Source of the DNA: Kalaharituber pfeilii
Lineage: Eukaryota > Ascomycota > Pezizomycetes > Pezizales > Pezizaceae
Direction: 5' to 3'
DNA: 64,000 nucleotides
NCBI GenBank assembly: GCA_015179045.1
Contig: WHUZ01000117.1
Span: 62,001 to 126,000, forward strand
The notes under the pieces are model-generated. The model was not told where the DNA came from. It saw only the letters and a program-made list of their open reading frames with translations, and did not search any database. The position numbers and the translations under genes are program-made. This document shows positions 6,765 through 63,354 of this stretch, in pieces; the first letter of the stretch is position 1, and every line of letters starts with the position of its first letter.

Positions 6765-7504
6765 TGTTACGGCCCGTGTCCTACAGACCGCCGGCAAGCC
6801 ACGACCGCCTCCTGCTGACAGCCGGTAAGCTCATAGAACCGGCTAGCTATTGGTAGCTAGCCAGCCGTTACTTACAGCCCTCCCGCCGACAGCCGGCAAA
6901 CTCATAGAACTAGCTAGCTATAGGTAGCTAGCCAGCTGCCAGTATAGCCGCCGGCCTACCAAAGTAGGCTTATGGCTTATCATAGTTGTTACAGTGAAAA
7001 CTCTGCCTTCGCCACTGCACTGCCCCCGCCATGACCCTCATTTGTCCTGCCATGGCGAAGAGCCGCATGCGGGGTCATGTGACAAAAAAAAAAAAAAATG
7101 ACCCTCATTTCTGGCTCTTGCTACTGCCCTCGTCGCCGCTCCTACTTTTGTAGAATATTTCTTGGCTAATGGGCCTATCATGTATATAAAGGCCCCATCT
7201 GGCCCTCATGTAAATAGCTTTTTCTCTCCTTGTCTGTTGACTTGTCTTCTTAATAGACCAAGATGGTTCCTCGCAGTCCATATGTTCTTGTTATTCTTGT
7301 CAATCTCTAAATCTTATCCAGTATCTGATCTTCCTCTCTGCCTTTTCAACATAGCCTGCCATCACCGCTGAACTGGAGCTGCTGAGCCGCCACTCACGAG
7401 CCTCTCCTGTCGAGCCTCTCCTGTCAAGTTTATCAAGCCACTGCCGTTCAGCGCCTGCAGAACCATTGTTACCCTGAATCGGTCGTATCCCTTAGCACGC
7501 GACA
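6765..7504 (+). mobile_element. LTR of a TGTTACGGCCCGT family (probable solo LTR)
   Basis: A second, inverted copy lies at 45929-46826, where both ends and a TSD are clear. Matching blocks include the CCGGTAAGCTCATAGAACCG block, GTATATAAAGGCCCCATCTG and the terminal TATCCCTTAGCACGCGACA. A promoter-like TATATAAAG at about 7174 fits an LTR. The flanking 5-mers do not match here, so one end may have eroded. Confidence 0.65.
7044..7097 (+). mobile_element. Ultra-short LINE-B tail insertion (54 bp), 13-bp TSD
   Basis: ATGACCCTCATTT occurs at 7031-7043 and 7098-7110. The insert is GTCCTGCCATGGCGAAGAGC through GGGGTCATGTGAC and poly(A), with nothing upstream of the hairpin base. Confidence 0.9.
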
Positions 7505-8195
7505 TTAAAAGGAGAAAAAAAAAAAATACTGCTGACTAAGTGTCAAGCGAAATGTTACATTTAAGGTGTACCATACTTCCCTTCGGCGCTAACCATAATG
7601 GTTATAGACTTGTGGCTAGATCCTGAGCCTGGCGAAAAATGCAATTGGGATTTTGCTCCATCGGTGATACTGTTGATTTTACGTTTCTTATGAGTAAGTG
7701 ATGGGATTTAGTGTGGGTGTAGGTACTGTGGGAATCTTGGCGCAGGATGATGCAACGGTGGATGATAACTCAAGATGGAAGGGGGGACCATGAAGGCCTA
7801 GATGAGACTACCCAAGGGGGAAAGGGAAACCATGACAGCCTGGGTGAGACTACCCGAGAGGGAAGGAGGGCCCTGAGGGACTGAGGAGCGGCGATTACCA
7901 CAAGGGGGGAGGGGACCAGAGGGTGATGGGTATATAAGGAGGGGGAGAAGGAGGGTTTCTATCATCATCATCATCGTCGAGGGTGATCACAGTATAACTG
8001 GGTGGTTGTTCTGTCCGTCTTGCAGTGTTTCATAGTCCTCTTCAATACAGTGAACCGGTCTTTGTCTTGTGCCTCGCAGTTATCTCTAGCTCTTTACTAT
8101 TGTGTGTTCTCGTTCCCCTCCTCAGAACTTCCGTCTGTTCCCTCCCACAGTACGGGTTTAGCGAGGCTTGGCATGAGACTCCTAGTGTAGTCGCA
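7505..8195. other. Purine-rich unassigned sequence
   Basis: Contains two imperfect copies of a GATGAGACTACCC block (about 7802 and 7842), a TATATAAGGAGG box at 7931 and an ATC microsatellite at 7961. It may be part of an LTR, but I could not bound it. No coding evidence. Confidence 0.35.
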
Positions 8196-8420
8196 GCTTT
8201 TACACGGGGTCCCCTTACCCGTGGCACGTGTCCTGTATATCGCCTCCAACCCCCCTGGCCATCTCCTCCTCCACACCTCGCACCTGTCCCAATATATGTG
8301 TCACTGTCTCTTCCGCCTCCCCGCAACATCTGCATCCCGTACTGTCCGTCTGCCCCACCTTGTGCCTCCAGGTCCTCAGGTCTTTCCCGCCTATTGGGCC
8401 CGCCAGTGTTTGCACCATGC
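8196..8420 (-). pseudogene. LINE-A ORF2 C-terminal fragment
   Basis: The minus-strand frame from 8418 gives TLAGPIGGKDLRTWRHKVGQ then TDSTGCRCCGEAEETVTHIL, matching the RNase H-distal C..C..H zinc-knuckle end of the 48-kb LINE-A (STLAGILGNKGLKEWRY; CRWCGRALENLKHI). No tail or TSD is seen with it, so it is an old or internally truncated copy. Confidence 0.65.
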
Positions 8421-9775
8421 ATCCAATTATTACATTGAAACAAATTCAACATTAACCAAGAGAAAGAATGCGATTGGTCTTGTCGCATAATATGGCATGC
8501 AACTGCCGTAGCCAATTGGAGCAGCACAGTTTGTTATCACAGAACCTTGCGCAAGAAGTTGTAGAGCTTCCAAAATGCCAAGAAACCAGGGTGTCAACAA
8601 TTTTAACCTTCAGCTTTGAAGTGACACGAAGAAAAAAAGGAGGTCTCAGTTATCAATAATCAACTTCACCTTGACAGGAGCGGCTACACACTGCCCCAAA
8701 CTCAGCAATTAATTACTTGGTTTCTAAATCAGGATATCTTCCGCCTTGCTAAAGCTATCGTGGTTGAGCTATTTTTTTTTAGAACTTCTGCTACGCCGCA
8801 CTTCATCACTAGCAAGGCTGTAGCAGGGTCGGGAAACTGTAGAGCCCCTTGCGAAAGGTCTATTGAGGGCAAATTTATTTGAGTTCCCTCAGAGTGTAAG
8901 GCGGATCTTCTCTTGCAACGAACAGTAATTTATCTGCAGCAGATACTTATTAGTTCACTTTAATAATGAACTACTGTAGCAGTCCACTCGAGTAGCTAGC
9001 ACCCACATCAAAGCCGCGCCCACAGCGCAGCATAAGAATAATAAAGGAAAAAAAATTAGAATAAAAAAGCTCTAAGTCGCACCGGGATCTGCAACCAATT
9101 GCAGCTCAAAATCATTCCCCCCCGCATCAGTAGCCATCGCGCCCTAGTGTAGGGATACCAAATGCGAGGTCAGCCCCATATTCTGCACGGAATATGGTGG
9201 ATGCGTAAACAATGCAGTCCAATTTGATACTTGGCTATCTTGCTAGGCCTAAATCGGCCCTTGCGGGGTTTAGTCCAATAGCACGCCACTTTTCATCGGC
9301 AGGTGTAGAGTTCAACCATTGAAAGATAATTCGCAAGCTTTACCATTTTCAGACTAGTAGTAGGGTAGGAATAACGTCAAAGCAAGACATTAAGTGAAAG
9401 GTTATCTAGTCCAACCCCTCTTTTATTTCGTCCAAACACAATGTGTGTCGTAGAAGCATGCCTTACTTCGGTTGAGACCGCTTTCAAGCATCAGTCGCTT
9501 AGCTGGCAGGTCTGTTCATGCTATACCACACCTGATGTCATTTTGACACATTCTACGTAGTCTACTACATAAGGTTTCAGCCGTTCCGGCTTAATATAAG
9601 ATAAATCTCACAAGATAGGTGAGCAGAGTTCGACTCCTGTTCGCTCATACCCCGCACTTGCGATCCTCAATCATCTTGATATCTCGTACGGCACTCTTTA
9701 TACACGGCAACTTGGTTCAATACACGCGACGGTGGATAACCACTAAGCTAATTTAAACTCCAGAATAGGTTCAAC
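8421..9775. other. Unassigned intergenic sequence upstream of the DUF4419 gene
   Basis: No repeat, element or gene was recognised. A small inverted repeat (TGAGCAG..CGCTCA, about 9620-9648) is present. No convincing TATA box stands before the 9776 start. Confidence 0.4.
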
Positions 9776-11614
9776 ATGCATGGAATTACCTTCCGTGTTG
9801 CGGATGTCGAGCCTGAAGACTACTATTTTCGCAACAGTTATGCTCACAAAAACCACATTCAAACCCCCGAACAACTGCTCACTTGGGTCAGTAGACGTGC
9901 TGATGAGGAATGCAAAGAACTTATCCAGTCCTCTTTTGCTGCAGAGTCCTCTCGGACCAACCTGAACCCTGCCGAAAACGGCTTCATCAGCGCCGTGCTC
10001 TCCGCCTACCAAGGTCACTATCACCTGACTATCCGCCCAGATGACGTCTGGATTGCAATACTCACCCAATTTTCGCTTTTTGTGAACGCAAATGCAGACA
10101 CGCTGGCGGATAAATTTGTAGGGTTCCCAGAGATGAAGGAATTGAAAGTGGAAATGCTGGGCCCAGGGTATAGGGACGGCTTGAATTATGGATTGCTTGC
10201 ACTGGCTATGAGTGAGGAGATCGACAAAAACATTGTGGATCCGGAACTGAAGGAGTGGATTCTGCCTCGCTTTAGTACCACTACACTGGACGACAAAATT
10301 ACAAGCTCACTGGTGATGATGTCGACACTGAAACAGTACTTCAGGTACGCCATGGTGGTGACTATGTGTGGGATTCCCAGTGTAACCTTGCAAGGGGATA
10401 AGGCGGACTGGGCAACCCTACTGGCGAAGATTGAGAAATTGAGAGGGTACAACGCAGAGACTGTGATGTGGTATCATATGCTGGAGCCAGTGCTGAGCAG
10501 GTTCGTGCGTGCATTCGATGACCCAGATGGAGAATGGAATAGAGAGTTTTGGAACAGAGCAGCGACAACAGAGACACCACGTCCGGGATCCGGTGCGACA
10601 ACTTACTTGACTGGGTGGCTGACGGCATTTATCCCCTTTGATAATGAGGGAAAGTGGCAACTAGTTTCGTGTTTCGAGGATGTGATCCAGGTGAGTGCAT
10701 GTCTTCAGTTAACTTGAGTTTGAATGGCATGTAAATACTGACTCTGTGTGAAACCGAATCTCAGCCAATCCCTCAAAGTGAATACTCTCAGCTTGGTAGG
10801 GCCGAGTTTATAGCCAAATATAATGCTAAGGCGAGGGCCTATTATCACCAGAACCAACAGGTTGAGAGTGACCAAAATCCCGGCATTAGTGATGCCAGTT
10901 CTACCAAGGCACCTAAAAGACTCGATGTCAAATACGACTCATTCGGTATTCAAGCTCTCGGATCCAAAGGCGAAACCACAACCTGGTACTACGACACAGG
11001 CAGAGGCACCAGGGAAGAACGAGTGGAAGAACGGCAGGGCTCACAACTTGTGATAGACGGCACGTGGTATCCACGACATTCGAAACGGGAGGTAACCAGA
11101 GCGGTGGTGGATGTGGATGTAGCCTTTACTGAGTATGAGACAAAGATGGAGGCGGTGTGGGTTGTGGGTTTGATGGGGTACCAAGTGCAGCAGCGGGAGA
11201 GCGACAAGGAGGGAGAGAAGAAGTTGAAGGGCGAAGCAAATAAAGATTGGACCGATTCATCAATGACCAGTAAGTCTAGAGGAGTGGTAAGTGAAGTTCC
11301 CCCCTCAAACTGCATGTCATAAAAGTCTGCACAATTGCTGCTCATATGCAGGGTGTCCACTAACCTTATTTCGTGCACTATGAACATTATGTTGAATTCA
11401 AGCCCAGCACGAATGCTTCAAAGTCACCCTATGAAAGCGTGATAAGTCCCAAAGTTGGCTGGTGGATGTACGAAAAACATCCTGCAGACGTGTGAGTACC
11501 AACCTTCCTTCCTAGCTCTAATTTGGACTTCTGGTTTCCATGTGGCCTGTTTCTGACCTGAACTATCTACACAGGCTTGCAAAAAGAAAAAAAGATCGTT
11601 TGAGGTTCTACTAG
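9776..11614 (+). CDS. DUF4419 family protein, four exons
   Basis: Exons are 9776-10690, 10765-11286, 11403-11491 and 11575-11614; total 521 residues. Introns of 74, 116 and 83 bp all have GT..AG ends (donors GTGAGT, GTAAGT, GTGAGT) and keep the frame. The family signature is clear: NGFISAVLSAYQGHYHLTIR followed by PDDVWIAILTQFSLFVNANA at residues about 68-107, and KVGWWM near the C-terminus. DUF4419 proteins are common and expanded in filamentous fungi; their biochemical role is not established, so none is claimed. The start is the first ATG before the conserved ITFRVADVEP. Without splicing the last intron the protein would stop one codon after the exon 3 donor, so the extreme C-terminus is uncertain. 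No flanking partner gene is apparent. Confidence 0.87.
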
Positions 11615-11907
11615 TTCTGAGTAGGACTTATTCTGTCAATGAATACAAGATGCAATAGCAGGTGTTACTGGCATATGTTCAGATGATGTTACTCATGCAA
11701 GCTTACAGGTCTTCAAGCTAGCACTCATGAATAATCATATGAGCTGCAAATAGGATTGTGGGAATTTGCAATGCTAAATGCTGTAAGTGGGAACCGTCTG
11801 TGCTAACGTGACCTTCGTCTTGTTTGGTTTTTATTTCCGTCCACTCTACTAGCGACGCTCGTGGGCTATGTGGATTCTCATTTTTTAATTGTCAATTTAT
11901 TTCCTGT

Positions 11908-12020
11908 TTTTTTATTTATTATCATTAGTCGCGTGCCGCCCTGTGGGTTATGGCGATGTTAGGTACAGGAAAAAGAGGAAGAAAATAAGAGAAAACGAAA
12001 GAGAAACTTTCTCATTGTTC
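11908..12020 (-). mobile_element. LINE-A tail insertion (113 bp), 15-bp TSD
   Basis: CAATTTATTTCCTGT flanks it at 11893-11907 and 12021-12035. Body: short poly(T), hairpin in minus sense (GCGTGCCGCCCTGTGGGTTA), and about 50 bp of 3' UTR. It lies inside the 3' UTR of an older plus-oriented LINE-A tail. Confidence 0.85.
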
Positions 12021-12045
12021 CAATTTATTTCCTGTGTATGTAGCT

Positions 12046-12086: not shown

Positions 12087-12090
12087 TTTT

Positions 12091-12700: not shown

Positions 12701-12703
12701 GAA

Positions 12704-16746: not shown

Positions 16747-16759
16747 AGGTTGTGCGTGG

Positions 16760-16820
16760 TGCCCTGCCTTGGCGAGCAGCTGCGCGCGGGGTCACGTGAC
16801 ACACACAAAAAAAAAAAAAA
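16760..16820 (+). mobile_element. Ultra-short LINE-B tail insertion (61 bp), 13-bp TSD
   Basis: AGGTTGTGCGTGG lies at 16747-16759 and 16821-16833. The insert starts TGCCCTGCCTTGGCGAGCAG and ends GGGGTCACGTGACACACAC plus poly(A). Confidence 0.9.
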
Positions 16821-17047
16821 AGGTTGTGCGTGGAGAAGATACGTTGTGTGTGGCCGACATGGCGAAAAGTCGATATTTCAAAATATGGATTAGATCAACA
16901 GGATCAGGACACTAAAATTTATTGATCCAGGTAGGTATCGCAAGTAATCCTCTCGTGGTTGCGAAGTCTCTCCAAAAACTCGTTCCGTGGAGGTTGTTGT
17001 CGGTGACTAGGAGTGGCTTGCCGTTAGGCCGTGGATGACAGTAAGTA

Positions 17048-21784: not shown

Positions 21785-21948
21785 CAGTCACATGGCAAAA
21801 GAAAACGCCCACCTTTGCATAATCTTTGGGCCTGTGTGCATAATCTTTGGGCCCTGTGCTTAATTAAGACATACACGCGGGTGTCTTAGACATAAAGGCG
21901 CTTAGCTAGGTCTCACAACATTGCGCTAAATTGGGAATTCTGAGCCAG

Positions 21949-21952
<4 letters not shown>

Positions 21953-21985
<33 letters not shown>

Positions 21986-22025
21986 TCATGTGACCCCACT
22001 TGCAGCTGTTCGCCATGGCAGGGCC
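21953..22025 (-). mobile_element. Ultra-short LINE-B tail insertion (73 bp), 12-bp TSD
   Basis: TGAGCCAGAGAT at 21941-21952 and 22026-22037 flanks poly(T) of about 32 bases and the tail in minus sense; the sense 5' end is GGCCCTGCCATGGCGAACAG. Confidence 0.92.
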
Positions 22026-22158
22026 TGAGCCAGAGATGATTCTCAAGATTAGAGGATAGAAAAATATAAAGTTGACTCCTAAAGGGGACCGGAAGTCAAG
22101 AAAAAATCTACAGCCACCTACAGGTAACTGACAGCCGAATTTACAAAATCCTGCAATA

Positions 22159-24628: not shown

Positions 24629-24724
24629 ATTGATAAATTGCTAATATAGGATAAGGAACAAGAATCTTAAAGTGTCTCGAAGCATAGTATGAGACTAACT
24701 ATGAGTCTCAAAGTCTTAATATTT

Positions 24725-24786
24725 GCCCTGCCTTGGCGAACAGCTGCACGCAGGGTCATGTGATATAAAAAAAAAAAAAAAAAAAA
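24725..24786 (+). mobile_element. Ultra-short LINE-B tail insertion (62 bp), 14-bp TSD
   Basis: AAGTCTTAATATTT at 24711-24724 and 24787-24800. Insert: GCCCTGCCTTGGCGAACAGC to GGGTCATGTGATAT plus poly(A). Confidence 0.92.
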
Positions 24787-25100
24787 AAGTCTTAATATTT
24801 GGGTAGTAGTAAAGAGAAAAGATAGAATAGAGAGGACTATATATACACTCTTAAAATGCGCAACTTACCTTCTAGAGACCTTGGAGATATTAAATTTAAA
24901 AGACTTGATATACATCTATTATAATTGAACCACTTTTGATATTTATAGAAGTTGTTGGCAGGTTGGAATGAGCTCTGAGTCTCTAATTTAGTGCCATATT
25001 AGGTATTTACAGTTTATGAAACCCTGCACTGACTGAGCATTTTAGCGAACTGTCAAGAGAAACACTAGCGTAATCTTGGCTGTCTCAAGCTCGACCCAGA

Positions 25101-25171
25101 TTAGCCTGTCTCCGGGCTATGAGGGCTTGCCCAGGGACCCTGCCATGGCCAAGTGCTACAAGCGGGGTTAT

Positions 25172-25200
<29 letters not shown>
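25101..25200 (+). mobile_element. Short LINE-B 3'-end insertion (100 bp), 14-bp TSD
   Basis: AAGCTCGACCCAGA at 25087-25100 and 25201-25214. Starts TTAGCCTGTCTCCGGGCTAT, about 45 bp upstream of the hairpin start used by the shorter copies. Confidence 0.92.
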
Positions 25201-25879: not shown

Positions 25880-26004
25880 TAAGATAGTGCATGGAAGCGA
25901 AAGTATTGGAACAGCTGACTAATGCGCTAGTCAGCCGTTCTAATACTTTCTGAACGAGCGCGTACTTGGCATGGCAAAACATAATTTTAGAGACTTAAGG
26001 AATT

Positions 26005-26059
26005 TTTTTTTTTTTTTTTTATATCATTAATCGCTTGCCGCCCTGTGGGCTATGGCGAT
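26005..26059 (-). mobile_element. Ultra-short LINE-A tail insertion (55 bp), 14-bp TSD
   Basis: AGACTTAAGGAATT at 25991-26004 and 26060-26073. The insert is poly(T), TATCATTAATCGCTTGCCGC, CCTGTGGGCTATGGCGAT and nothing more, so its sense 5' end is exactly the first base of the outer stem (ATCGCC). Confidence 0.92.
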
Positions 26060-26073
26060 AGACTTAAGGAATT

Positions 26074-29542: not shown

Positions 29543-31359
29543 TCATCCCTCACATTTTTCAGGAATTGCGAGGCGATTTCTCCAATATGGTGTCACGAAT
29601 ACCTATAAATTTGGAACTTAAAGTTAGTAGCCTGGTCTCACAAAATTGCACCCAACTTGACATTCTGAAGCATACTACATTTGGGACTAAAAATACCTAC
29701 CTGATGTGGGTCCATCTTTGCCCTAACTTCCATCCACGCATCATATTTGCTATACAGTTTCTTGACTTTTGTCCCATAATCATCTGGTGTATATTTGCCC
29801 CAATGGCACCTATATTCTCTCGGCGCAAGCTTCTCCCAATACGGCTGGTAGAACTCCCTCGCTGATCCTCTTTCGTTTGCTGTAAACCATGTTACATCCA
29901 CGCGTATCATATTTCCATCAAATGAGGGACTCATCCAGAAGGGGCTCTTCTTCGCTGCATAAAGTTCGGTGAAGAAGTTACCTATCGCACTGAAATCCGT
30001 GTTGAACAAGGTGTTCAAATCGTTCATCACCGCTTTCGTTTTGTCAATCGGAAACCACAGCTCGGTGAAGGAGACTGGCAAAATTGTGTCAGATATCTCG
30101 TTGTCCATCGGCAGCCCTCTCCACCACCAATCACAAAACGATTGAGCACCCGGAACGGGAGTGAACAACCCGAGCAATTTTGCGGCAAGTTTCCTGTACA
30201 ATTCATTGTTGGATTCCAGGAGATTCAGGGCAATAAGGACAACACGTGCAGCAGATTGAGCAAGTATGCTGCTCCCACCGATCCTTGGTAACTCCTCGTA
30301 TTCCTTGATTTCCCGCTGTTGATGGGTGTCGGGATCAATCACAGAGACACTCTTCGCCTTCCAAACGGTAATCCTGTTAAGGTCTCTTTGTGGCCACCAC
30401 AACAGGCGGGTATATTGGGTTTTCTCGAGATGCTCTTTTAGACTTGGGATGTCGGTAGAACCGTCGCCCAGAATGTCAACAGGGCAACCGAGAGCGGGAT
30501 TTGTAGAAGTCGGGTGGATGGGAGATGTTGTTTGGGTTCCTTGAATGAAGAAGTTTGGCATTAAGGTAAAGGTCGCACTAGTTAAAATTCCGAACAATCC
30601 CATGGACACTCCTGCAGCGTAGAATTCGGGATCATTAGAGTCCTTGGTGTACTCCTTGATGTCTCCCAGCCCATTAACGAATCGAAGTCCGACCACACAG
30701 TCATGGAGACCATCCTCAAGTGATCCCCCAGCGGAGCTGGTCATAAGGAAGCCTGCAACAGTCTGGTGCGATATACCCCCTAGATCTGGGAGTGCATATC
30801 CCGCTGCATTGATAGTATGAAGGAGGGAGTTCTCTAATGTTGATGAGGAGTCTTGGGGGTCCTTCCCGAGGTGGCAGCCACCACCAACTGTCACGCGCGC
30901 AGGAGCGTTGCTAGTTGGAGGGGTGATATGAATACTCCGCAATTTCTTGATGCTCAGGAGGACGGATGATGTAGAGTCATCGATTGAAGCTGCAACAGAG
31001 TGGCGCGAGCCGACTACACGGACGATTTTGTTGGTCTTAAGAGCCTTCTTCACAATATCCTGGACTTCCTGTTCGTTTTCTGGCTCAAGAATGCATGGCT
31101 TCGCCGTAGAATGACGTAGGAGCCGTTCATGTGTGAGTTCGGGGTGAAAGGCTCTACTAGTTAGCGTTTCCGAACTAGCAGTATCTGTAACTAGAGGGGT
31201 GAGGAGCTCCTCGATGAGCCTTAGTGATTCGTTTCGCTGCGATTCGGTTTTCTGGGGGAATTCGTCAATGTCCTGCGCAATCACTTCGCATAGGATGGTT
31301 GGGTCACGATCGCAAACGGGGATGTTGTAGAGGGGGTGGTTTTTTGTGAGCGTTGCCAT
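29543..31359 (-). CDS. FAD-linked sugar-1,4-lactone oxidase (D-arabinono-1,4-lactone oxidase family)
   Basis: Exon 1 is 31359-29701 and exon 2 is 29602-29543; the 98-bp intron has GTAGGT donor, CTAAC branch motif and TAG acceptor. The spliced product is 572 residues and ends ..DPHQVFVTPYWRNRLAIPEK. Residues about 82-280 form the FAD-binding PCMH fold: VVGSRHSVAASI holds the His (120) that in this family can carry the flavin covalently, and VTVGGGCHLG and GISHQTVAGFLMTSSAGGSL are the expected loops. The C-terminal ALO domain shows RCHWGKYTP near residue 517 and DPHQVFV near the end. Such enzymes oxidise aldono-lactones, for D-erythroascorbate synthesis in fungi; the exact substrate is not readable here. 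If the intron is retained, translation stops after QVGIFSPKCSMLQNVKLGAI. Confidence 0.88.
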
Positions 31360-33934
31360 GATTGTTCACGCAGTGGCCGATTTTTCCTGGGGTCAACTGT
31401 GATTTCAGCTGGAACTCAGTTCACAAAACGTCATCACTCGTTTTCCGGAGAAGAGGGCTAGGGACCCCTATATGTGTGGATTACGGAGCCGGTGCGCATA
31501 TTCCTGTGTGTAGTGGGCACATATCTGGTGACCCACCATGGAAAGCAGCTGAACCTCATCCTGAATGCCATGATGGTCGACAGCGATTGGACTTCAGCTG
31601 AGAGTATGGCACCAGGTGATCACGTTGCAGCTTAATTCTGATTCAAAAGTCACCCCACGTTTTGTTCTTCGATCGCTTACTACAGTAGTACGTAACTTAC
31701 CTGCTGTGGCCCTCTTCTGTGTGGGCATGCGGTCGAGCAATTCAGCTGAACCTGCAGCCATGCGGGGTAATACGAGGAATTCTCAGATCCGCATAACGGA
31801 AGCTAACCCGCTTTGGAAATATTCCGTAGAACCTTGCTATACCTCAAATCTCACTGCCCCATCATCCCACTCACACTCAATTACCTCTTGCTATCACGAA
31901 AATCCACCAACTAACGAAACGAAATTTTTTCTTGCTATAACCAAATGGCGAATGAAATATAAGACTAATGGATGAATACCCAGTCGCACCTAGAAATCCC
32001 CTAAGTTACGATGTCAGTTTTGGTCCCAATATTCCCTGCGGAGTCTCAAAAGTATGTGTGCTCGGCTTTGTATTTCTGACCCATTGCTGCTGACATCATG
32101 ATTTGCATCAGCTCGCGCTTCGAACTAGCTAACAAGTTTTGCTGCTTGCGTGTCTTGTGTTGGTATGATTGCAGGCTTAGTACCTTATTCTAAGACATTG
32201 ACAAGCGGATGTAGAGGAGCATGGTATAAGGTCGATATAGAAATTCCTTCAATATGACAAAAGAATTAAGAGACCGAACCGCCTCTGCAGTTGTAATGCA
32301 AAGGCGGTTCTACCGGTGATTTGGTAGTTGGATGAGTATCTTGAATGTCCTCTGAGTTTTGCTTTTCTGATGCATTGCGGAACTCTCTGCAGCATCCTCA
32401 TCATGTAAGAGATATTGCATGGTACTTAATCAATACTTCACTGAGAACACTCGATTTTATGCTCTCTTTATTTTTAACTCCAGTTATTTCTGCAAGGGGA
32501 AATATCACGGAGTTAAATCTATAAAATCTGATCAGAGTTTAGCCTCTAAATTCAGCTGCGAAGCATATGACCAATTTTTCCAGCTATATTCTATAACGAA
32601 GCCTTGCTATCGCGGGGAAAAGTGCCATAGACTGTACTACAGTAAGATCGGTAAACCGTAGAGGTGCATGCAGGTATATGTCAGCAAACTGCAGATCCTC
32701 TGACCTTGCATTATAACAAACTGCAACCTCGCTGACGGGATGTGGAGATCTTTCCCTGCCATGGGCTGGTAGCATGTATCCGGAATTATGAGGCCCCCCC
32801 ACCCCCACCCCCAAAAAAGGAGATCTAGATCTACAAAGAGAGACACGAGAACCCGGAGGATCTCTAAATGGGAAAGCATAACGAGTAATGTGGCAAACTT
32901 ATGCAGATGAAGAGCAAGTGAGATCGTTGGAGGTTTTGGATTTTTCGTTGGGGGTGGCCATGGGCACGGAGATGGCACGCTTCTCCGATAATGTTTTTGA
33001 GGAATTATGGCCATACAAAATTTTTGGTCATATATTTGCATTGCACAAACTCCTCGAAATTGCATATTGTTGCATGGACCAGGGATTTAACAAGAGTAAG
33101 CCGGATAAAGAATTATAAGCTGAGAGACCTATCGAGAAGACGCTGTTGCCACAATTCTGTTTTGTCAAGGAACGTTGGAGAGAAGCAGAGCATTCCGTAG
33201 AGCAATTTTGAGGAGCAATTTTCAGGGGCCATTTAGTATGGGGAATTCCAAAGAAAATTTATGCCAAGAGATCATACACAAATGTCCCTTGTAACCAACG
33301 TTAATATTTTCGAGAAATATCAGATGCGAAAAGTAATCCTTTGATTGATCCGGCTTAAAAAGCGCATACAAAGGTGCTGTGGTGGTTGTTGAGATGAAGG
33401 CTCTCTCGGGTTATCTGCCTTGGTCGGGAACATGTGTCGTTCCTTGGCTTGTGATGAAATAAAGTACGGTATCCCTCCAAACGATGGAACAGTTCTGTTC
33501 TTTTTTTGTTTTTTTTAAATCCATAGGGAGTATTTGAACCTCAGACATGCCAGCCAAACTACTTAGTGTGAACGATCCCGGACCAAATAACAGTAATTGA
33601 AACAAGAGTCATCATAAATGTTGGACCTTTTTGCTAACCAAAGCGTCCTCCATGTTTTGAATGGAATCGATATTCGCCTACGGGGCTCATTCCCACCATA
33701 TTGGAAGCCCTGGGGAATTACTTTTGCATGATCTGGTGACTTGCGACGATTTTTGTATTAGGGTAACAAGATAAGGTTCTACATAAAGTTATATACCACC
33801 CGTTCTCCCAGTCCCAAAAAAAATCCAACCGCAACGAAAAATAGTGCCAGCATTTCCCATACCTTCATCCTTCTCGCGGACTGCAAGGGCCTCAAGTGAG
33901 AACATCTTATGCGACTCCTTCCCCTGTATCCCCC
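31360..33934. other. Long unassigned intergenic region
   Basis: No element with ends, no LINE tail and no convincing ORF. Short poly(T) at 33498-33515 lacks an adjacent hairpin. This is the longest repeat-free stretch and includes the upstream region of the oxidase gene. Confidence 0.4.
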
Positions 33935-38372: not shown

Positions 38373-38386
38373 AGAGCCTTTAGAAC

Positions 38387-38430
38387 CCCATAGCCCACAG
38401 GGCGGCATGCGAGTAATGATATATAAAAAT
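38387..38430 (+). mobile_element. Ultra-short LINE-A tail insertion (44 bp), 14-bp TSD
   Basis: AGAGCCTTTAGAAC at 38373-38386 and 38431-38444. Insert: CCCATAGCCCACAGGGCGGC ATGCGAGTAATGATATAT and a few A. This is the smallest bounded insertion in the window. Confidence 0.92.
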
Positions 38431-38444
38431 AGAGCCTTTAGAAC

Positions 38445-43858: not shown

Positions 43859-43887
<29 letters not shown>

Positions 43888-44043
43888 CACATAACCCCGC
43901 TTGCAGCGCCAAGCCATGGCAGGGTCCCTGGGCAAGCCCTCGAAGCCCGGAGACAGGCTTAACAAACAAAGAAATTTCTATCTACTTCTACCCCCTGATT
44001 CCAGAAACCTCCAGACGGACCTTCCGGTTTCTGCCTCAGGGAG
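43859..44043 (-). mobile_element. LINE-B 3'-end insertion (185 bp), 14-bp TSD
   Basis: GAAATACTGAATTT at 43845-43858 and 44044-44057. Carries tail, the TTAACAAACAAAGAAATTTC block and the CTCCCTGAGGCAGAAACCGG block of the LINE-B 3' UTR, which links the tail to the RNase H copy at 36 kb. Confidence 0.9.
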
Positions 44044-45650: not shown

Positions 45651-46123
45651 CAGCATATTTTAGTAAACACTGGAACTCAAGGCTATTTCCTGCTAATGAA
45701 CTTGATATTTTTTTGTATTTAACGCTATCTATTTGCCTTGGATCTGCTCTGAAATCTTTAATTTTGCTGATTCTTAGAACAATCACTATATCTGATATTA
45801 AAGAAGCAAACCTAACCAGTCTGTTGGTCAACCATGAATAATGTTTTACCCGAATGAATATATATTAAGCTATGTGTATACCATCAATCAGGAACAGTTA
45901 TCTCATTTGCAGTATCATACAGCAAAGCCGTCACGCGCGGCGGGGGGCGTTGCTAAGGGATACGACCAGTTCAGGGTAACAGTAGTCTCTCAAGCACAAT
46001 ACCAGAAGCTTGATAAACTTGACAGAAGAAGGCTTGACAGGAGAGGCTCGTGAGTGGCGGTTCAGCGGTTCCAGTTCAGCCGGTTCAACGGTGCCGGTTC
46101 AGCGGCGATGGTAGGCTTGGTGA

Positions 46124-46181
46124 TTTTTTTTTTTTTTTTTTTTTTTCATTAATCGCATGCCGCCCTATGGGCTATGGTGAT
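46124..46181 (-). mobile_element. Ultra-short LINE-A tail insertion (58 bp), 13-bp TSD
   Basis: GTAGGCTTGGTGA at 46111-46123 and 46182-46194. Poly(T), TTCATTAATCGCATGCCGCC, CTATGGGCTATGGTGAT. Confidence 0.92.
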
Positions 46182-46572
46182 GTAGGCTTGGTGAAAAAGG
46201 CAGAGAGGAAGGATCAGATATTGAATAAGATCTAGAGGTTGGCAAGAATAACAAGAACATATGGACTGCGAGGAGCCATATGGGTCTATTAAGAAGGCAA
46301 CAGACAAGGAGAGGAAGAACTATTTACATGAGGGCCAGATGGGGCCTTTATATACATGATAGGCCCATTAGCCAAGAAACATAATACAAACATAGGCCTA
46401 CTTTGGCAGGTAGGCGGGCTGTACTGGCAGCTGGCTAGCTACCTATGGCTGGCCGGTTCCAATGAGCTTGCTGGCTGTCGGCAGGAGGACTGTAACTGAT
46501 GGCTGGCTAGCTACCTATAGCTAGTTGGTTCTATGAGCTCGGCTGTCTGCAGGAGGGCTGTAAGGTACGGGC

Positions 46573-48024: not shown

Positions 48025-48767
48025 GGATGGAAGAGCACATACACAGACGGAAGTCGGGTGAACAATCTCACTGGAGCGGGAACACACTGCCGAGGCCAAG
48101 ACGACCACATATACCTGGGAAGGGGATGCACGGTCAATGACGGAGAGATGATCGCCATCAGCCACGCACTCAACCACGAGGGAGAATTACTACTCATCAC
48201 CGACTCACGTACGGCCATCGCCAGACTACAAAGGATAGAAATGGCGACCCAAACGTCGAAGGCACATCCATGGAAGTCAGGAGACAATGGGAGAAGCGAT
48301 TCAACCGGGGAGATCTAGACACAGCGGTAATGTGGGTCAAAGGCCACAAAGGCGTGGAAGGGAACACCAGGGCGGACACGGCAGCCAAGATAGGCACAGC
48401 CATACAGTACGAAGACGACACGGTCACGGAGGCAGGGTTAAGACAGGAAGCCAAAAGCCTCAGGGCCGAGGAACGGAATCGACTGGGGCTATCCTACAGA
48501 CCCCTCCAGAGAATAGACAATCGAAGAAGAATCTCCACACTAGCGGGGATCCTCGGCAACAAGGGCCTCAAAGAGTGGAGATACAGCATAGGGAAAGCCG
48601 ACTCACCGGAGTGCCGATGGTGCGGCAGAGCGCTGGAAAACCTAAAGCACATAACGGACGAATGCCAGGTATGGAAAGGAAAACTCAAAGACGGAGCCAA
48701 AGGTCTCAGACATCCAGACAAAGACACGAATCTGGCGGAAATTCTGGAATGGGCGACGGAGGAGTAG
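48025..48767 (+). pseudogene. LINE-A RNase H domain and zinc-knuckle end, one frameshift
   Basis: Frame 1 reads STYTDGSRVNNLTGAGTHCR, then GEMIAISHALNHEGELLLIT and DSRTAIARLQ. At about 48270 the reading shifts to MEVRRQWEKRF, AVMWVKGHKGVEGNTRADTA, LKEWRYSIGKADSPECRWCG, and ends NLAEILEWATEE. Across both frames the D-E-D-D RNase H residues are present (TDGS, GEM, TDSR, RAD). A single base change in length would explain the break. The upstream reverse transcriptase was lost by 5' truncation. Confidence 0.85.
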
Positions 48768-48894
48768 GGAAGCGGAGGAGGGAGTTCTTTATTTACTGTC
48801 CTATTTCTCTTATTTTTCATATTTCCCACATGTAACTAAATATCGCCATAGCCCACAGGGCGGCATGCGATTAATGAAATAAAAAAATAAAATA
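48025..48894 (+). mobile_element. 5'-truncated LINE-A (870 bp), 15-bp TSD
   Basis: AAATAAGGAATGAAG at 48010-48024 and 48895-48909. The empty site is preserved in the inverted duplicate near 59960, which proves the insertion. Contains RNase H coding, 3' UTR, hairpin at 48843-48874 and an A-rich tail (AAATAAAATAAAATAA). Confidence 0.95.
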
Positions 48895-52173: not shown

Positions 52174-52222
52174 TGTTGGTGTTGCAAGTCCCAAATTCAT
52201 TATGCCAGCAGTCCGGATACTT

Positions 52223-52280
52223 TTTTTTTTTTTTAATATCATTAATCGCGTGCCGCCCTATGGGCTATGGCGATCCAACT
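52223..52280 (-). mobile_element. Ultra-short LINE-A tail insertion (about 58 bp)
   Basis: GTCCGGATACTT at 52211-52222 and 52281-52292. Poly(T), ATCATTAATCGCGTGCCGCC, CTATGGGCTATGGCGATCC. The exact right edge is uncertain by a few bases. Confidence 0.88.
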
Positions 52281-52619
52281 GTCCGGATACTTCTGACATA
52301 ATAAAATTGGACACTATCCACGAAATTTGGACTGGTCTCATAAACATCCACAGCCAAGCATACGAAAATATGGTAGTTTATGCCAACTACTGCATAGCGC
52401 ATGGTATGCATTTATTCCCTGTCCGGATACTTATTTTTCGGCTAGTAGAACCTCTGCAACCGGGCAGGCTAAGTAGTCTACATTCCCCTGTCGATACCCC
52501 TGCATGCGGGCAGGCCAGACTGGCCTGCCCGGAGAGGTCCCGTCTACCTTTTCATGACCAATCCATAACGTATTGTGACAAACAGGCTGTTCTCACGTTC
52601 CTGCTCCTAGAACAACACA

Positions 52620-58304: not shown

Positions 58305-58367
58305 GACTAGGTTGACAGCTAATACAGCAACAACAAAAAAGCAAAATTTACTATCACCAGATTCATA

Positions 58368-58424
58368 ATTTTTTTTTTTTTTTTATATCATTAATCGCTT
58401 GCCGCCCTGTGGGCTATAGCGATC
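58368..58424 (-). mobile_element. Ultra-short LINE-A tail insertion (57 bp), 11-bp TSD
   Basis: CCAGATTCATA at 58357-58367 and 58425-58435. Poly(T), TATCATTAATCGCTTGCCGC, CCTGTGGGCTATAGCGATC. Confidence 0.92.
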
Positions 58425-58722
58425 CCAGATTCATACGCGCTTCAGATTTTTACTCACTCGCTGTAGGAAAAAAAGAAAGAAATGGGAAGCAAGAATTGAC
58501 ACAGGGTTGGCACTATTGTCGCTTACCTGTTAGTGACCGATCTCTTGGCACTCCTCCTGCAACTTCCACATGCAATATCTTCGGCGTCAGGCATGCTAGC
58601 AACATGAGGTAAGTTGCGAAATATACAGCAGATGTGCTTGAATATTTAGAGAATATTTGATGGCTACACCGTTTTCAATGATATGTAGGGAAAGTATAGC
58701 ATTCAATCCCCCTCTTACATAG

Positions 58723-59482
58723 CTAATGAATCCAACAGGCCAGGCCGGTTCAGGCCAATCAGGCCGGTTCAGGCCATTCAGGCCGGTTCAGGCGCCCTGC
58801 CATGGCGAACAGCTACAAGCGGGGTCATGTGATATATAAAAAAAAAAAAAAAAAGGCCGGTTCAGGCCAATTAAACGAATCACTCCACAGCTATCCAGCT
58901 GAATTGAGGCCAGTATTTACCAGATTGTTTGAGTATTTAGATGAGTAGAATCTCCCGTATGTCTAGAATTTCAAACAGCAGCGGTCTACGACTTTTGTCA
59001 AGTATGTATCACACTTTGTATTCAAGTATATATACTAAAAAATAATTTAGAAATGATGGACCTTCCAGATAATACAACAGACTGGACCCAATTCTTCGAT
59101 GATGATACCTGATGCGCAACTGTCAATTACTGATAGTGGAAATATCCAGGATTATTAAAATCTAATTCACCTGGGTTAAATTCCAAAATCGCTTGAATTT
59201 ACGTGAATGGCCTGGTCGGCCTGGACTGGCCTGAATGGCCTGAACCTGCCTGATTGGCCTGGACCGGCCTGAATGGCCTGAACCGGCCTGAATGGCCTGA
59301 ACCGGCCTGAATGGCCTGGACCGGCCTGATTGGCCTGATTGTTTCAGGCCGCCTGGGCCGGTCCAGGCGGCCCTCACGGCCTGGCCTGATTGTTCAGGCC
59401 AGGCCAGGCCCAGAATTTCACGGTCCAGGCCAGTCCAGGCCTCCGGTTGGCCTGGCCTGGCCTGGCCTGTTGGATTCATTGG
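58723..59482. mobile_element. DNA element made largely of GGCCTGAA minisatellite, 8-bp TSD
   Basis: TTACATAG at 58715-58722 and 59483-59490. Inverted ends C(T/C)AATGAATCCAACAGGCC. Both subterminal regions (58740-58870 and 59205-59470) are arrays of GGCCTGAATGGCCTGAACC-like units in opposite orientation; the centre is about 330 bp of AT-rich sequence with no transposase recognised. The TSD length fits hAT-like elements. Confidence 0.8.
58795..58853 (+). mobile_element. Ultra-short LINE-B tail insertion (59 bp), 14-bp TSD
   Basis: AGGCCGGTTCAGGC at 58781-58794 and 58854-58867, inside the minisatellite arm. Insert starts GCCCTGCCATGGCGAACAGC. Because the target is repetitive, the TSD alone is weaker evidence here. 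Confidence 0.87.
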
Positions 59483-59512
59483 TTACATAGCGAAGGATCA
59501 CATACACTAAAC

Positions 59513-59570
59513 GCCCTGCCATGGCGAACAGCTGCAAGCGGGGTCACGTGAAATAAAAAAAAAAAAAAAA
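59513..59570 (+). mobile_element. Ultra-short LINE-B tail insertion (58 bp), 13-bp TSD
   Basis: ACATACACTAAAC at 59500-59512 and 59571-59583. Insert GCCCTGCCATGGCGAACAGC to GGGGTCACGTGAAAT plus poly(A). Confidence 0.93.
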
Positions 59571-59585
59571 ACATACACTAAACAC

Positions 59586-61119
59586 TACATCACTATCCTC
59601 AACTATAGCCCTTTGGTATGAGACTAAGCCCTTTGCACTCTCAAATGAATATAGAAAAAGGTAGCTAAGTTAAATGGTGACGGAATTGTTGAAAATGGTA
59701 TAGTACAACGTTCAGTCTTTCCACCCGGTTCTGTTCTTCTATATCATTCTCTAATATTCTACTACTTTCTAGTTTTCTCTTATACGTCATGTATTCATTT
59801 GTCATGCATCATGCATTCTAGATATTTCTGTCTCTGCGTTCTTTACTCTTGACACTTCTAGATATTTCTGTCTCTTCTTTCTTTACTCTTGACACTTCTA
59901 GATATTTCTAAAGTCATGTGAGCATCACGTTACATACACGTGACTTGCTTCTTCATTCCTTATTTGGAAATATCTACATTTTCTTTGTACTCGAGAGCTC
60001 AGTTATAAATAGGTCTCGAATTTCCTCCTGTACGTAGGTTGAACTTTAATGAATCAACTTGGTTCTTCCAACAGGAATAAAGTTGGTGTGGATTTCTGTA
60101 GCCTCAAAAGCAGTCACCGAAATTTGAAAGTGCAGGAAGTGCTAAGAAATCGATAGACCTTGCACCTGAGGTCCGTTTAGCATACATAGACCATTTGAAC
60201 TCGATTGAAGATAAATCTGCTTTCGCTTTTTACTACAACAAAGAGGCGACTTGAGAATGCGTACATGAGTAGTGACATAGAGATCATGACAATTCACTTC
60301 CGGGATCTAATTATTACTCAATCCGGTATATAGGTCTAGTGTCAGCTTACCATATTGGCCAATCGTATCCTTTGGGTGTAGTGGCCAGAACGGACCTGAT
60401 ATCGACAGTCCGCCAATCATTTGCCGCGGTCGAAAGAAGGGAGGGAAATATATATATATTTTGTGCGATCAATTTATGTTTGTTTCCTTGGGTATTTTCA
60501 CTTGGTATCTTTGCATGCTCCCAGCCAGTTGGGGCACATTTGATCCAATAGAGGAATCAGCGAGGAACAGGGGACGATACTAACGACTTTTCTTAATCTG
60601 GGCATGCTACAGGGAGTGGTGGCGATACGTCTCTGTAATGTTGGAACTGAGGTGACTCGCATATATAAGGACCATAAGCGCGAACAGGGTTTCGACTACA
60701 ATCTGGACTCACGTTGGATATTGATATGGCAATTGCCCAATTGTGTGGGTGGTGGGTTCATGGTAAGTTCGGCTAGCACTCAAGGCGGTGTATTTGATCT
60801 GACGAACAGTTCAGAAGATATGATGAATGTCAGATAATGGCCACGAGTGAAGTTGAATTCTACGGGACTAAGGGGACACCACTGTCACATGCACCTCTAC
60901 TCCGGCGCGCCAACATGCATATTATGACATTACCGACGGCACCGCTCCTAGGAATGTCACTAGAGGCAACATACGATTTTCGTAATTTTTTTTTTTTTTA
61001 TTTCATTAATCGCGTGCCGATCCTTGCTAGTCCTCTGCGTAGCTTATATAGCACATTTATGTGACTGCAATTCCGTCGCATATCGCTTGCATATGTATAT
61101 CCACCGACCGCCCGCCCTA
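59586..61119 (+). repeat. Inverted segmental duplication, right copy
   Basis: Partner of 46840-49263 in opposite orientation. Contains a solo LTR at 59687-60073, the shared 70-codon ORF (60339-60551), two further short shared ORFs (60604-60837, 60837-61064) and a minus-sense LINE-A-like tail remnant at 60988-61020. It lacks the LINE-A present in the left copy. Confidence 0.88.
59687..60073 (+). mobile_element. Solo LTR (LTR-Z copy 3), 387 bp, 5-bp TSD
   Basis: TGTTGAAAATGGTATAGTAC to CTTGGTTCTTCCAACA; GGAAT at 59682-59686 and 60074-60078. Contains a TATAAATAGG box at about 60004. Empty of the LINE found in copy 2. Confidence 0.92.
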
Positions 61120-61680
61120 TGTCACGGCTTGGCGTGCCATGGCGGCAGAGGGAAGCTGATTACTGTTGAAGAATATGCAGAGCTGAAGTGAAACATCGTG
61201 CACAGTGGTTGGGTGTGCTGAAACATATGCAACCTGAGCTGTGGCCATGATTCAGACTGACGTTTCATGATTCTATGGTCTTCTATTTCCTATACCAATT
61301 ATATCCTCTTTGTAGTCTGAATCCGCTGCTATGCGCAACCTCATTCCGCACCAATGATTGTTTAGTTGGGTACGAAGGTACTTCCTGAATTTTGCTGTAT
61401 AAATAGGGCCGTTTTGGGACGCATATTTGGGGTTATTCTATAGGAATTAATAAACAGTATCCCACCGCACTTTAGCTCGTAATCTGTAGTTTTACCACAA
61501 TTACTAGTACGTGTGGACGTCTAAGGGAGCCAAGATCCTTGACCACGTGCGCAAACGTAAGCGAGTCGCTGACCGGCCCGTACGGATACTCCTATATATA
61601 CCGACCGCACTACCGGGTGGTACCGGTAGTTCTACCTTTCGGTGCAACGGTTTGCAAACGGTCGGTTGCAATCCGTAACA
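61120..61680 (-). mobile_element. LTR split by another LTR
   Basis: Minus sense TGTTACGGATTGCAACCGAC (61680) to GCCAAGCCGTGACA (61120), near-identical to the solo LTR at 51954-52173 apart from the insertion at 61164-61499. Flanking 5-mers do not match, so recombination may have created the present edges; the left edge coincides with the end of the segmental duplication. Confidence 0.78.
61164..61499 (+). mobile_element. 336-bp solo LTR nested in an LTR, 5-bp TSD
   Basis: TGTTGAAGAATATGCAGAGC to TGTAGTTTTACCACA; ATTAC at 61159-61163 and 61500-61504. A TGTATAAATAGG box (about 61399) and AATAAACAG (about 61447) give the orientation. The uninterrupted copy at 52125-52150 confirms the junction. 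Confidence 0.9.
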
Positions 61681-62018
61681 GGTCGCGACTGAAAGGCGGT
61701 CGGCGGAGTGGTGGTGTGAGATGCTGCAGCAGCGGCTCGAAGGGGCTAAGACTAAGAGGTGGTGGGGGCGGGGCGGTCGGTTCATGAGGTGTAAGTTTTG
61801 TCAACTTTCCTATGACCTTGTAATTAGTTGAACTAGAATGCTGTTGTTTCCATATGGAGGTAACACCAAGCGCCATGGATAGGGGCAGAATTGCGACCCG
61901 GGGAATACCGGTAAGGCTGATCACCATCTTGTTCAATAAGATAAACTGTACTGCATCAGCAAAAACGGAAAATCGCCCTGAAGCACCCGGGGGGCTGAAT
62001 ACCCCCCAAGCGCCTTGA

Positions 62019-62230
62019 GCGCCCTGGATGCACGTCATCTACTCATTGTAATCTGGCGCACTAAACAAGGCTCTGTGCGCCCTGGATGCACGTCATCTAT
62101 TCATTGCACCCTGGCGCAGTAACTAAGGCTCTGTGCGCCCTGAATGCACCTCATCTATTCATTGTAACGTCCTATGCACCCCGGATGCATGTTACCTGTT
62201 GATCATAACTAGACGCACTAACTAAGGCTG
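62019..62230. repeat. 58-bp minisatellite, about 3.5 copies
   Basis: GCGCCCTGGATGCACGTCAT starts at 62019 and 62077, with diverged copies at 62135 and about 62172. Confidence 0.82.
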
Positions 62231-62480
62231 TTTACACCCAGACAGTTTCCAGATGCCTCTATTACGTCTCTGCGCAACTGATAAGTGTGCCATGTACTTT
62301 CACGGTATTAACCACTTATAGACACTGAAGAAGCTTTTTTACAATAGCAAGTACTGCAGATAGAACGCCTTGTTTGACAACTGATTATGTATATCTAGCT
62401 ATTGTGATCTATATCCAGGTGCCCCTTCATCATCCTATCATGCCATACCATTATCAGTCACCCTACCGCTCCTGCTTCAT

Positions 62481-62536
62481 CTTGCTGTAGCCTGATAGGC
62501 GGTATGCGAGTAATAAAATAAAAATAAAAAAAAAAA
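62481..62536 (+). mobile_element. Ultra-short LINE-A tail insertion (56 bp), 11-bp TSD
   Basis: TCCTGCTTCAT at 62470-62480 and 62537-62547. Insert CTTGCTGTAGCCTGATAGGC then GGTATGCGAGTAATAAAATA and A-rich tail; the hairpin pairs are changed but complementary (GCCT-GAT-AGGC). Confidence 0.9.
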
Positions 62537-62625
62537 TCCTGCTTCATGTAATATAGTCCATTTTGCCACTCTCGCTGCAATAGAGAATTCGGCTCATTGT
62601 GGTGCATCGAGGAGCATTGAGGAGA

Positions 62626-62826
62626 ATTTTTTTTTTTTTTTTTTTTTTATTTCATTACTCGCGTGCCGCCCTATGGGCTATGGCGAGGTATATATAAACT
62701 AGAACTAACACAAAAGACTGACTAAAAACTAAATACAAGTATTGCCCGCTTGTCCTCCGTGATGCGGGTAGAACAACACCCAACGTCTATTTCCTTCCCC
62801 TGTCTGTCTCATACACGCACGACTTT
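62626..62826 (-). mobile_element. 5'-truncated LINE-A insertion (201 bp), 13-bp TSD
   Basis: AGCATTGAGGAGA at 62613-62625 and 62827-62839. Poly(T), minus-sense hairpin (CTCGCGTGCCGCCCTATGGG), then 3' UTR. Confidence 0.9.
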
Positions 62827-62839
62827 AGCATTGAGGAGA

Positions 62840-63279
62840 GCTGCCCTACCTGTCAATAGCTTTTTCTGCCAAATGTCATGCTGTTAAGAGGGGCCTGCCA
62901 TACCTGTAAATATGTGCTGCAACAGTCGCGTCAACAAACATAAACAAACATGTTCTGAGCGCGTCGGCACGTTGTATCACCAACCTAGTCAACACTGAAC
63001 TTGACGTCAGAATGAGGGGTAATTCCTGCAGTATTAACCGGCAACCTGGAAGTGTACTGAGCAACAGCCTATCATCCTATATTGGGTTGCCAGCCGACCC
63101 ATGTGAGTAACAACCAGCGGCTGTAGTGGCCGACCCAATGAGCAGCCCGATAAGCAGTCCAATAAGCAGCCGAGTAAGTGACTCTGCGAGTAGCCCAGGT
63201 TCTAAAGCTCCCTTTGCAACAGTTAAAGTTTATTTCAATTGAGTAGTGGGCATCCATGACCAAAACAAAGGTTGCGTTC
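62840..63279. other. Unassigned sequence
   Basis: A short array of GAGCAGCCCGATAAGCAGTC-like 12-mers at 63137-63180; otherwise nothing recognised. Confidence 0.35.
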
Positions 63280-63293
63280 AGGCGTATCTACTC

Positions 63294-63354
63294 GTCCTGC
63301 CATGCGAAGAGCCGCATGCGGGTCATGTGACAAAAAAAAAAAAAAAAAAAAAAA
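63294..63354 (+). mobile_element. Ultra-short LINE-B tail insertion (61 bp), 14-bp TSD with one mismatch
   Basis: AGGCGTATCTACTC at 63280-63293 and AGGCGTACCTACTC at 63355-63368. Insert GTCCTGCCATGCGAAGAGCC to GGGTCATGTGAC plus poly(A). Confidence 0.88.

Follow-up and report, generated by a model that had tools for sequence, protein, structure and literature searches.

How short a sequence can a long interspersed nuclear element (LINE) mobilize, and what fixes the point at which such a copy begins? Both questions are raised by a 64,000-nt stretch of the Kalaharituber pfeilii genome (forward strand, positions 62,001 to 126,000 of contig WHUZ01000117.1; hereafter, the window), which holds insertions made up of the terminal hairpin of one of two LINEs, LINE-A or LINE-B, and poly(A), each flanked by a target-site duplication (TSD). 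A minus-strand frame of the window (29638-31365) matched a protein of this desert truffle (Pezizales) with 100% identity over 97%. An old question about LINE 5′ truncation is whether the enzyme falls off or copies an RNA that was short beforehand. In this genome, the junctions of a large family, from two LINE families, converge on one place, which makes the truncation question testable by mapping RNA 5′ ends. LINE truncation, recognition of LINE tails, and short retroposons are known already, as set out in the available part of a review (PMC3747384; this and the other papers are cited from the portions available). A search of the open-access literature, as far as the texts were available, returned no report of a hairpin-only, sharply defined product of two LINE families. 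The paper reporting the K. pfeilii genome names the species in connection with plant-cell-wall enzymes, and the word SINE (short interspersed nuclear element) is absent from its available part (PMC7550596).

Copy starts cluster at the foot of the terminal hairpin

Start positions were determined in 361,297 bases, made up of the window and 70 further loci (L001 to L070), of which 30 are about 3 kb long, 20 are 10 kb, and 20 are 321 bases. The tails of both LINEs were located by profile search, and duplications were then sought up to 7 kb upstream. Offsets are counted from position 1, where the terminal stem begins, with positive offsets lying upstream and negative offsets inside the hairpin. 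From 148 LINE-B tails, 93 starts were kept after removal of 42 tails without a TSD, 9 implausible cases, and 4 duplicates; from 129 LINE-A tails, 69 were kept after removal of 54, 4, and 2, respectively. As many as 62 of the 93 LINE-B starts lay at −2 to +2, with 2 at −20 to −7, 2 at −6 to −3, and 4 at +3 to +6. Further upstream, none lay at +7 to +33, 7 lay at +34 to +38 (one of them, at window position 58794, lies in a tandem repeat and has its true start at 0), 1 lay at +39 to +99, and 15 lay beyond. The 69 LINE-A starts comprised 6 at −20 to −7, 2 at −6 to −3, 23 at −2 to +2, and 1 at +3 to +6, followed by 1 at +7 to +33, 1 at +34 to +38, 5 at +39 to +99, and 30 beyond. Thus, in place of the smooth length distribution that the preliminary description had named as one outcome that would refute its proposal, the sample holds a spike at the stem foot and then a gap. 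That description had also remarked that some longer copies are scattered in length, as the longer LINE-A truncations are; the spike is sharper in LINE-B (62/93) than in LINE-A (23/69).

Two features of the sampling bear on these counts: L001 to L030 were retrieved with a query starting at the first base of the short copies, and most of L031 to L050 and all of L051 to L070 were picked around exact matches to the LINE-B tail 18-mer CCTGCCATGGCGAANAGC, which disfavors starts within the first stem. With L001 to L030 left out, 37 of 59 LINE-B starts remained at −2 to +2 and 0 of 59 at +7 to +33; the corresponding LINE-A figures were 18 and 1 of 52. When LINE-B tails were classed by upstream similarity and a nearby TSD, 145 of the 148 divided into 80 short, 37 long, and 28 in neither class, a good part of these 28 being short by eye. 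Within the tail haplotype H1, 20 of 26 short copies, most of them from loci retrieved by a query beginning at that very base, started at 0 and the other six within −2 to +4, with 23 distinct flanks. Ordinary LINE 5′ truncation, with starts clustering by chance, fits the longer LINE-A and LINE-B copies scattered in length, but the 93 LINE-B starts include 62 that are no more than 2 nt from the stem foot and none at +7 to +33. The scattered starts expected of an ordinary 5′-truncated LINE were not what we found, LINE-A having a scattered part beside its spike. We therefore rejected smooth truncation as the sole cause and regard chance clustering as scarcely credible.

Two smaller groups of starts lie away from the spike. 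Three H1 copies (L004, L012, and L041) begin with AAAGCC, a sequence complementary to GGCUUU of P1, a hairpin upstream of the terminal one, so that this second LINE-B start class again lies at a stem foot. Within the window, a LINE-B3 copy of the same class (25102..25176, plus strand; 14-bp TSD AAGCTCGACCCAGA) starts 36 nt upstream of the terminal hairpin, near the foot of P1. Six LINE-A starts lie inside the hairpin at −16 to −10, four of them at or beside AGGGC behind the loop; these four are compatible with RNA breakage. The LINE-A copies in L024, L031, L032, and L040, which start at or beside AGGGC, are even shorter inserts with TSDs, in which poly(A) follows about 24 nt of the LINE.

Target-site duplications and genome-wide copy numbers

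A flank match score of at least 6 was reached by 91 of 143 LINE-B and 39 of 127 LINE-A tails, compared with 5.5% and 4.8% when flanks were exchanged between copies. Chance duplications, which the preliminary description had named as a possible undoing of its proposal, were rejected on this control. The TSDs of short copies had a median length of 13 bp in LINE-B (range, 9 to 16; n = 63) and 12 bp in LINE-A (range, 9 to 17; n = 24), and the two families did not differ over all copies (P = 0.80). LINE-A TSDs were slightly shorter in short than in long copies (P = 0.03); the long LINE-B group in this analysis of TSD lengths had only nine members, because de-duplication by the last 14 upstream bases had merged longer LINE-B copies. 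With TSDs of variable length, an A-rich 3′ end, and the 3′ end of a LINE of the same genome, the sampled copies share these three properties with products of target-primed reverse transcription (TPRT).

Exact tail patterns were counted over the assembly (78,031,657 bases in 360 contigs). The LINE-B 18-mer CCTGCCATGGCGAANAGC had 2,116 exact matches and its reversed-pattern control had 0; extended by eight upstream places (CCAGGGRY, six of them outside the hairpin), it had 412. Hence about 1,700 exact LINE-B tails lack the upstream LINE bases, a number that will include some longer copies whose prefix has mutated. The LINE-A core AGCCCNNAGGGCGGCANGCGA had 3,717 matches, and hairpin-only LINE-A copies would number about 1,200 if they make up a third, as they do among the TSD-supported ones.

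Bases at the junctions of LINE-B copies differ from those of the LINE

Between the duplication and the hairpin, 20 of 86 de-duplicated LINE-B copies carry 1 to 6 extra bases. The base adjoining the hairpin is T in 10, C in 9, and G in 1 of these 20, versus G in 37 of 37 longer LINE-B copies, which were recognized by their similarity to modules ending in AGGG (Fisher's exact test, P = 3 × 10⁻¹⁴). Since the adjoining base is almost never the G of the LINE, the extra bases were not copied from it; read on the complementary DNA (cDNA), they would be purines. The reverse transcriptase (RT) of R2 adds up to three untemplated bases once its template has been copied (PMC8857657). Extra bases in LINE-A copies were uninformative, as 7 of 11 end in C, often the LINE's own base at that place. 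Duplication and element overlap by 1 to 2 nt in 20 of 86 LINE-B copies, which is the chance level, and microhomology-guided joining was accordingly rejected as the source of the start point.

Folding of the tails and LINE-B lineages

RNA folding predicts that LINE-B ends in a hairpin, P3 (RYCCUGC...GCGGGGU enclosing an inner stem, GGC...GCY), and that P2 and P1 lie upstream of it. The predicted pairing of P3 starts at position 1 in haplotypes H2 and H3, and one base earlier in two forms folded with more upstream sequence. In LINE-A, AUCGC/GCGAU or CUCGC/GCGAG closes the hairpin around an inner stem of GCCC/GGGC. Folding was much better than that of shuffled sequence only for H2 (z = −2.65) and for LINE-A in its CUCGC form (z = −2.45). 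Of 72 distinct LINE-A tails, 67 retain the outermost pair, 1-30 (as C-G in 37 and as A-T in 29), compared with a mean of 35.3 and a maximum of 49 in shuffles that ignore the relatedness of the copies.

Short and longer LINE-B copies can be compared at position 1 within lineages. The base there is G in 26 short and 6 longer copies of H1 and in 11 short copies and 1 longer copy of H2, and it is A in 1 short copy and 4 longer copies of H3; short B3 copies start with A, as do longer B3 copies. Genome-wide, the exact haplotypes occurred without and with upstream bases in ratios of 49/13 for H1, 348/41 for H2, and 173/158 for H3 (chi-square, P = 3 × 10⁻²⁸); because the prefixed patterns tolerate no mismatch and only a single base at position 1, the figures without a prefix are upper bounds.

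Origin of the hairpin-only copies

We tentatively favor, at close to even probability, the view that the insertions are TPRT products of LINE RNA already shortened to its last hairpin and poly(A). The 5′-to-3′ decay of LINE messenger RNA (mRNA) by an Xrn1-like exonuclease would halt at the 5′ foot of the stem, or might instead be stopped by RT bound to the stem, leaving 3′ fragments of 35 to 40 nt, the last hairpin, plus poly(A). The LINE RT would recognize the hairpin and tail, copy the short RNA to its 5′ end (runoff), and add 0 to 6 untemplated bases, and the cDNA would then be joined to the target. Decay arrested at the stem or at bound RT is the simplest source of such RNA ends. The preliminary description had proposed that either reverse transcription stops at one structure or a discrete tail RNA is mobilized. 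Copies that begin at the 5′ foot of a stem, as seen for two hairpins, and that carry untemplated extra bases favor RNA ends over RT stops, and RT, which copies from 3′ to 5′, meets the 3′ foot first, so a block by structure fits 5′-foot starts poorly. The first half of that proposal has therefore lost ground, and the second probably fits better. As for the nature of a discrete RNA, LINE RNA fragments from several lineages are more likely than one free-standing SINE-like gene, which fits poorly because several LINE-B lineages and LINE-A show short copies. A bolder version, which we consider possible but somewhat doubtful, holds that LINE 3′ stem-loops are exonuclease-stopping modules and that mRNA decay yields a defined 40-nt poly(A) RNA as a favored template for retroposition. 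In a human L1 reporter assay, depletion of XRN1 cut retrotransposition roughly threefold; the available part of that paper yielded nothing on 5′ truncation (PMC11014359). If the module version is true, RNA decay would be a steady source of thousands of insertions. The size of a mobile retroposon may go as low as about 40 nt plus poly(A), and standard repeat annotation would probably overlook such copies.

Several observations weigh against a short RNA template made by decay. The exonuclease step is one that we infer, and a cut in the cDNA at the hairpin foot or release of RT past the hairpin would give the same start. TSDs far upstream are harder to call, so the share of starts in the spike is an overestimate. 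LINE-B starts at the foot of P2 were absent from the sample. In H1, the predicted pairing of P3 begins only at position 3, and the three hairpins appear in the centroid but not in the minimum-energy fold. Compensatory changes are almost absent from the LINE-B stem pairs, which hardly vary and so say little about the stem. Deeper overlaps of duplication and element, 8 nt in L055 and 3 nt in two other copies, are of a kind to which the overlap test is blind, and the extra bases could come from end joining. The unequal shares of the lineages without upstream bases are not by themselves accounted for by one decay process. Finally, in tails of the GAAnAGC/GGGTTA group, position 1 is G in 7 and A in 1 of the short copies and A in 11, G in 2, and C in 1 of the longer ones. 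This split speaks for separate source lineages or for a first G that is untemplated or cap-derived. It lowered our confidence in the short-RNA explanation from even to just under even, took a similar small amount from the module version, and raised the standing of dedicated genes, discussed below, from improbable to slightly less so. On the B3 copies, a first G that is untemplated or derived from the cap is partly rejected, and the GGGTTA group keeps that option alive. GGGTTA-type tails with differing first bases include those in L043, L049, L051, L058, and L066.

Release of RT would dispense with any new RNA: the enzyme would copy full-length LINE RNA and disengage, or switch to the second strand, after the terminal hairpin, for example because the hairpin is held as its recognition site. 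That a single tail haplotype, H1, yields short, +38, and longer copies suits this scheme. However, the template past position 1 would still be present, yet in 19 of the 20 copies with extra bases the one adjoining the hairpin is not G; the copies begin at the 5′ side of the stems, although an obstacle formed by structure ought to stop the enzyme at the 3′ foot; and the further group of starts close to the foot of P1 would require the coincidence twice. We consider release unlikely, though of appreciable weight. Somewhat less probable still are dedicated genes making free 40-nt RNAs that LINEs mobilize, in effect ultra-short SINEs of perhaps several lineages. Such genes would suit the prevalence of tails without upstream bases in some haplotypes (H2, 348 of 389), the exact 5′ end (H1, 20 of 26 short copies at 0), and the difference in first base between short and longer GGGTTA-group copies. 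Against them, longer LINE copies of H1, H2, and H3 share both the tail and the first base, LINE-A behaves likewise with a different tail, and 40 nt, in which only the LINE tail is present, leaves little room for an RNA polymerase III (pol III) promoter. The sampled copies hold only a 39- to 40-nt tail, which matches the partner LINE as the 3′ tail of a SINE would, and no pol III-transcribed head. ARAGORN found no transfer RNA (tRNA) gene in the window, nor was there an Rfam match at the gathering score; pol III boxes were not scanned separately. Trimming of the cDNA, finally, appears improbable. Single-stranded cDNA would fold into the hairpin, and a 3′-flap nuclease, for which one of the XPF/Rad1 type is a candidate, would trim it at the stem foot before joining. 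Copies would then start at the 5′ foot wherever the stem is strong, and untemplated bases at joining would be allowed, but a long cDNA would be made and then discarded, and nothing in the data calls for it.

Comparison with known retroposons

The insertions share TSDs, poly(A), and a LINE 3′ end with 5′-truncated apurinic endonuclease-type (APE-type) LINEs carrying RNase H, for which Tad1-like fungal LINEs are the candidate kin. Ordinary LINE truncation falls at various positions and leaves members of 100 to 1,000 bp (PMC3747384), whereas here most TSD-supported LINE-B starts lie at one place. SINEs with LINE-derived tails are likewise short and non-autonomous and carry a LINE 3′ stem-loop, a structure common in stringent LINEs and SINEs (PMC3747384). 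They differ in having a head or body, where the insertions here are tail only. In length, too, the insertions fall below SINEs with tRNA-, 5S-, or 7SL-derived heads. The SIDER/RIME retroposons of trypanosomatids are also short LINE derivatives and carry a 79-bp signature; the insertions here keep the 3′ end only. SIDER/RIME elements are hundreds of bases long, and their signature lies at a 5′ place. Tailless retropseudogenes and retroposons derived from small nucleolar RNA (snoRNA) also arise from short RNA fragments copied by a LINE RT, the snoRNA-derived ones being short and without an internal promoter (PMC3747384). Unlike either, the fragment here is the tail of the LINE itself plus poly(A), and it comes from two LINE families. 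Orphan transductions likewise contain only the 3′ end of a source RNA, ascribed to premature ending of reverse transcription, but they hold flanking DNA from beyond the element; truncation hotspots of SVA are noncanonical termination sites in SINE-R, linked to cryptic polyadenylation signals rather than to hairpin feet (PMC12593883).

Insertions and parent elements in the window

All 13 insertions listed in the preliminary description held on re-reading: every one consists of a tail hairpin with an A-rich run and sits between duplicated flanks, 12 of which match perfectly and one with 1 mismatch, the inserts measuring 44 to 72 bp and the duplications 11 to 16 bp rather than the 11 to 14 bp given there. 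Its statement that the 5′ ends fall within a few bases of each other stands as well, with offsets of −1, 0, or +1 in the seven LINE-B copies and of 0, 0, +1, +1, −3, and +6 in the six LINE-A copies. The LINE-B copies on the plus strand are 7044-7097, consisting of P3 and an A run (7031..7110; offset 0; 13-bp TSD ATGACCCTCATTT); 16760-16820 (16747..16833; 13-bp TSD AGGTTGTGCGTGG; one additional T ahead of GCCCTGCC); about 24725-24785 (24710..24801; TSD AAAGTCTTAATATTTG, the final G of which is common to the element); 58794-58853 (58780..58867; TSD AGGCCGGTTCAGGC); 59513-59570 (59500..59583; TSD ACATACACTAAAC); and 63294-63354 (63280..63368; 14-bp TSD with the 1 mismatch). The copy at 21953 (21940..22037) is on the minus strand, with the 13-bp TSD CTGAGCCAGAGAT in plus-strand letters. 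Because the copy listed at 58795 lies within a tandem repeat of GGCCGGTTCA, the duplication there is less certain and the start can be read as 34 nt upstream or as 0. LINE-A copies lie on the minus strand at 26005-26059 (25991..26073; 14-bp TSD AGACTTAAGGAATT), 46124-46181 (46111..46194; TSD GTAGGCTTGGTGA), 52223-52280 (52211..52292; TSD GTCCGGATACTT; the +6 copy, with 6 additional nt outside the stem foot), and 58368-58424 (58357..58435; TSD CCAGATTCATA), and on the plus strand at 38387-38430 (38373..38444; TSD AGAGCCTTTAGAAC; the −3 copy, starting about 3 nt inside the outer stem) and 62481-62536 (62470..62547; TSD TCCTGCTTCAT). The segment 62470-63368, with insertions 62481 and 63294, is duplicated, and the same duplications occur in L028 (C14) and L030 (C168); these two insertions are therefore not independent of the copies there.

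For comparison, tails of longer copies were read at 43886..43924 (LINE-B3, minus strand, no trusted TSD), 62649..62687 (LINE-A, minus strand, TSD 139 nt upstream), and 2583..2621 (LINE-A, plus strand, TSD 147 nt upstream). A 3′ part of LINE-A at 48141..48864 (plus strand) has a 208-amino-acid frame, followed by the tail hairpin at 48847-48864; the weak RNase H match of the frame scored 22.9 bits, under the curated cutoff of 25.8 (E = 1.1 × 10⁻⁴). Elsewhere, Pfam domains of endonuclease, RT, and RNase H occur in two overlapping frames of the LINE-A copy in L050, an RNase H frame lies 180 bp before the LINE-B tail in L005 and L008, and a frame with RT and RNase H lies 394 bp before the LINE-B3 tail in L034. 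The C-terminal parts of LINE-A and LINE-B align over 159 residues at 36%.

Six copies of about 1.35 kb (L032, L033, L034, L037, L042, and L048) have a common 5′ region (approximately CAGCGACAACCACTTCGACAGG) and the LINE-B 3′ module at the end. Their frame is 238 to 322 amino acids long, and the single frame scanned (L042, 322 amino acids) had no Pfam match; the element is possibly a full-length non-autonomous relative of LINE-B. At 61019 (minus strand) and 46956 (plus strand), another short sequence ends in the 3′ half of LINE-A (GGCACGCGATTAATGAAAT plus A) and is possibly chimeric or a second family using the LINE-A end. A LINE-B3 tail at 5791-5815 (minus strand) has an odd mirrored tail run of 12 T followed by 13 A.

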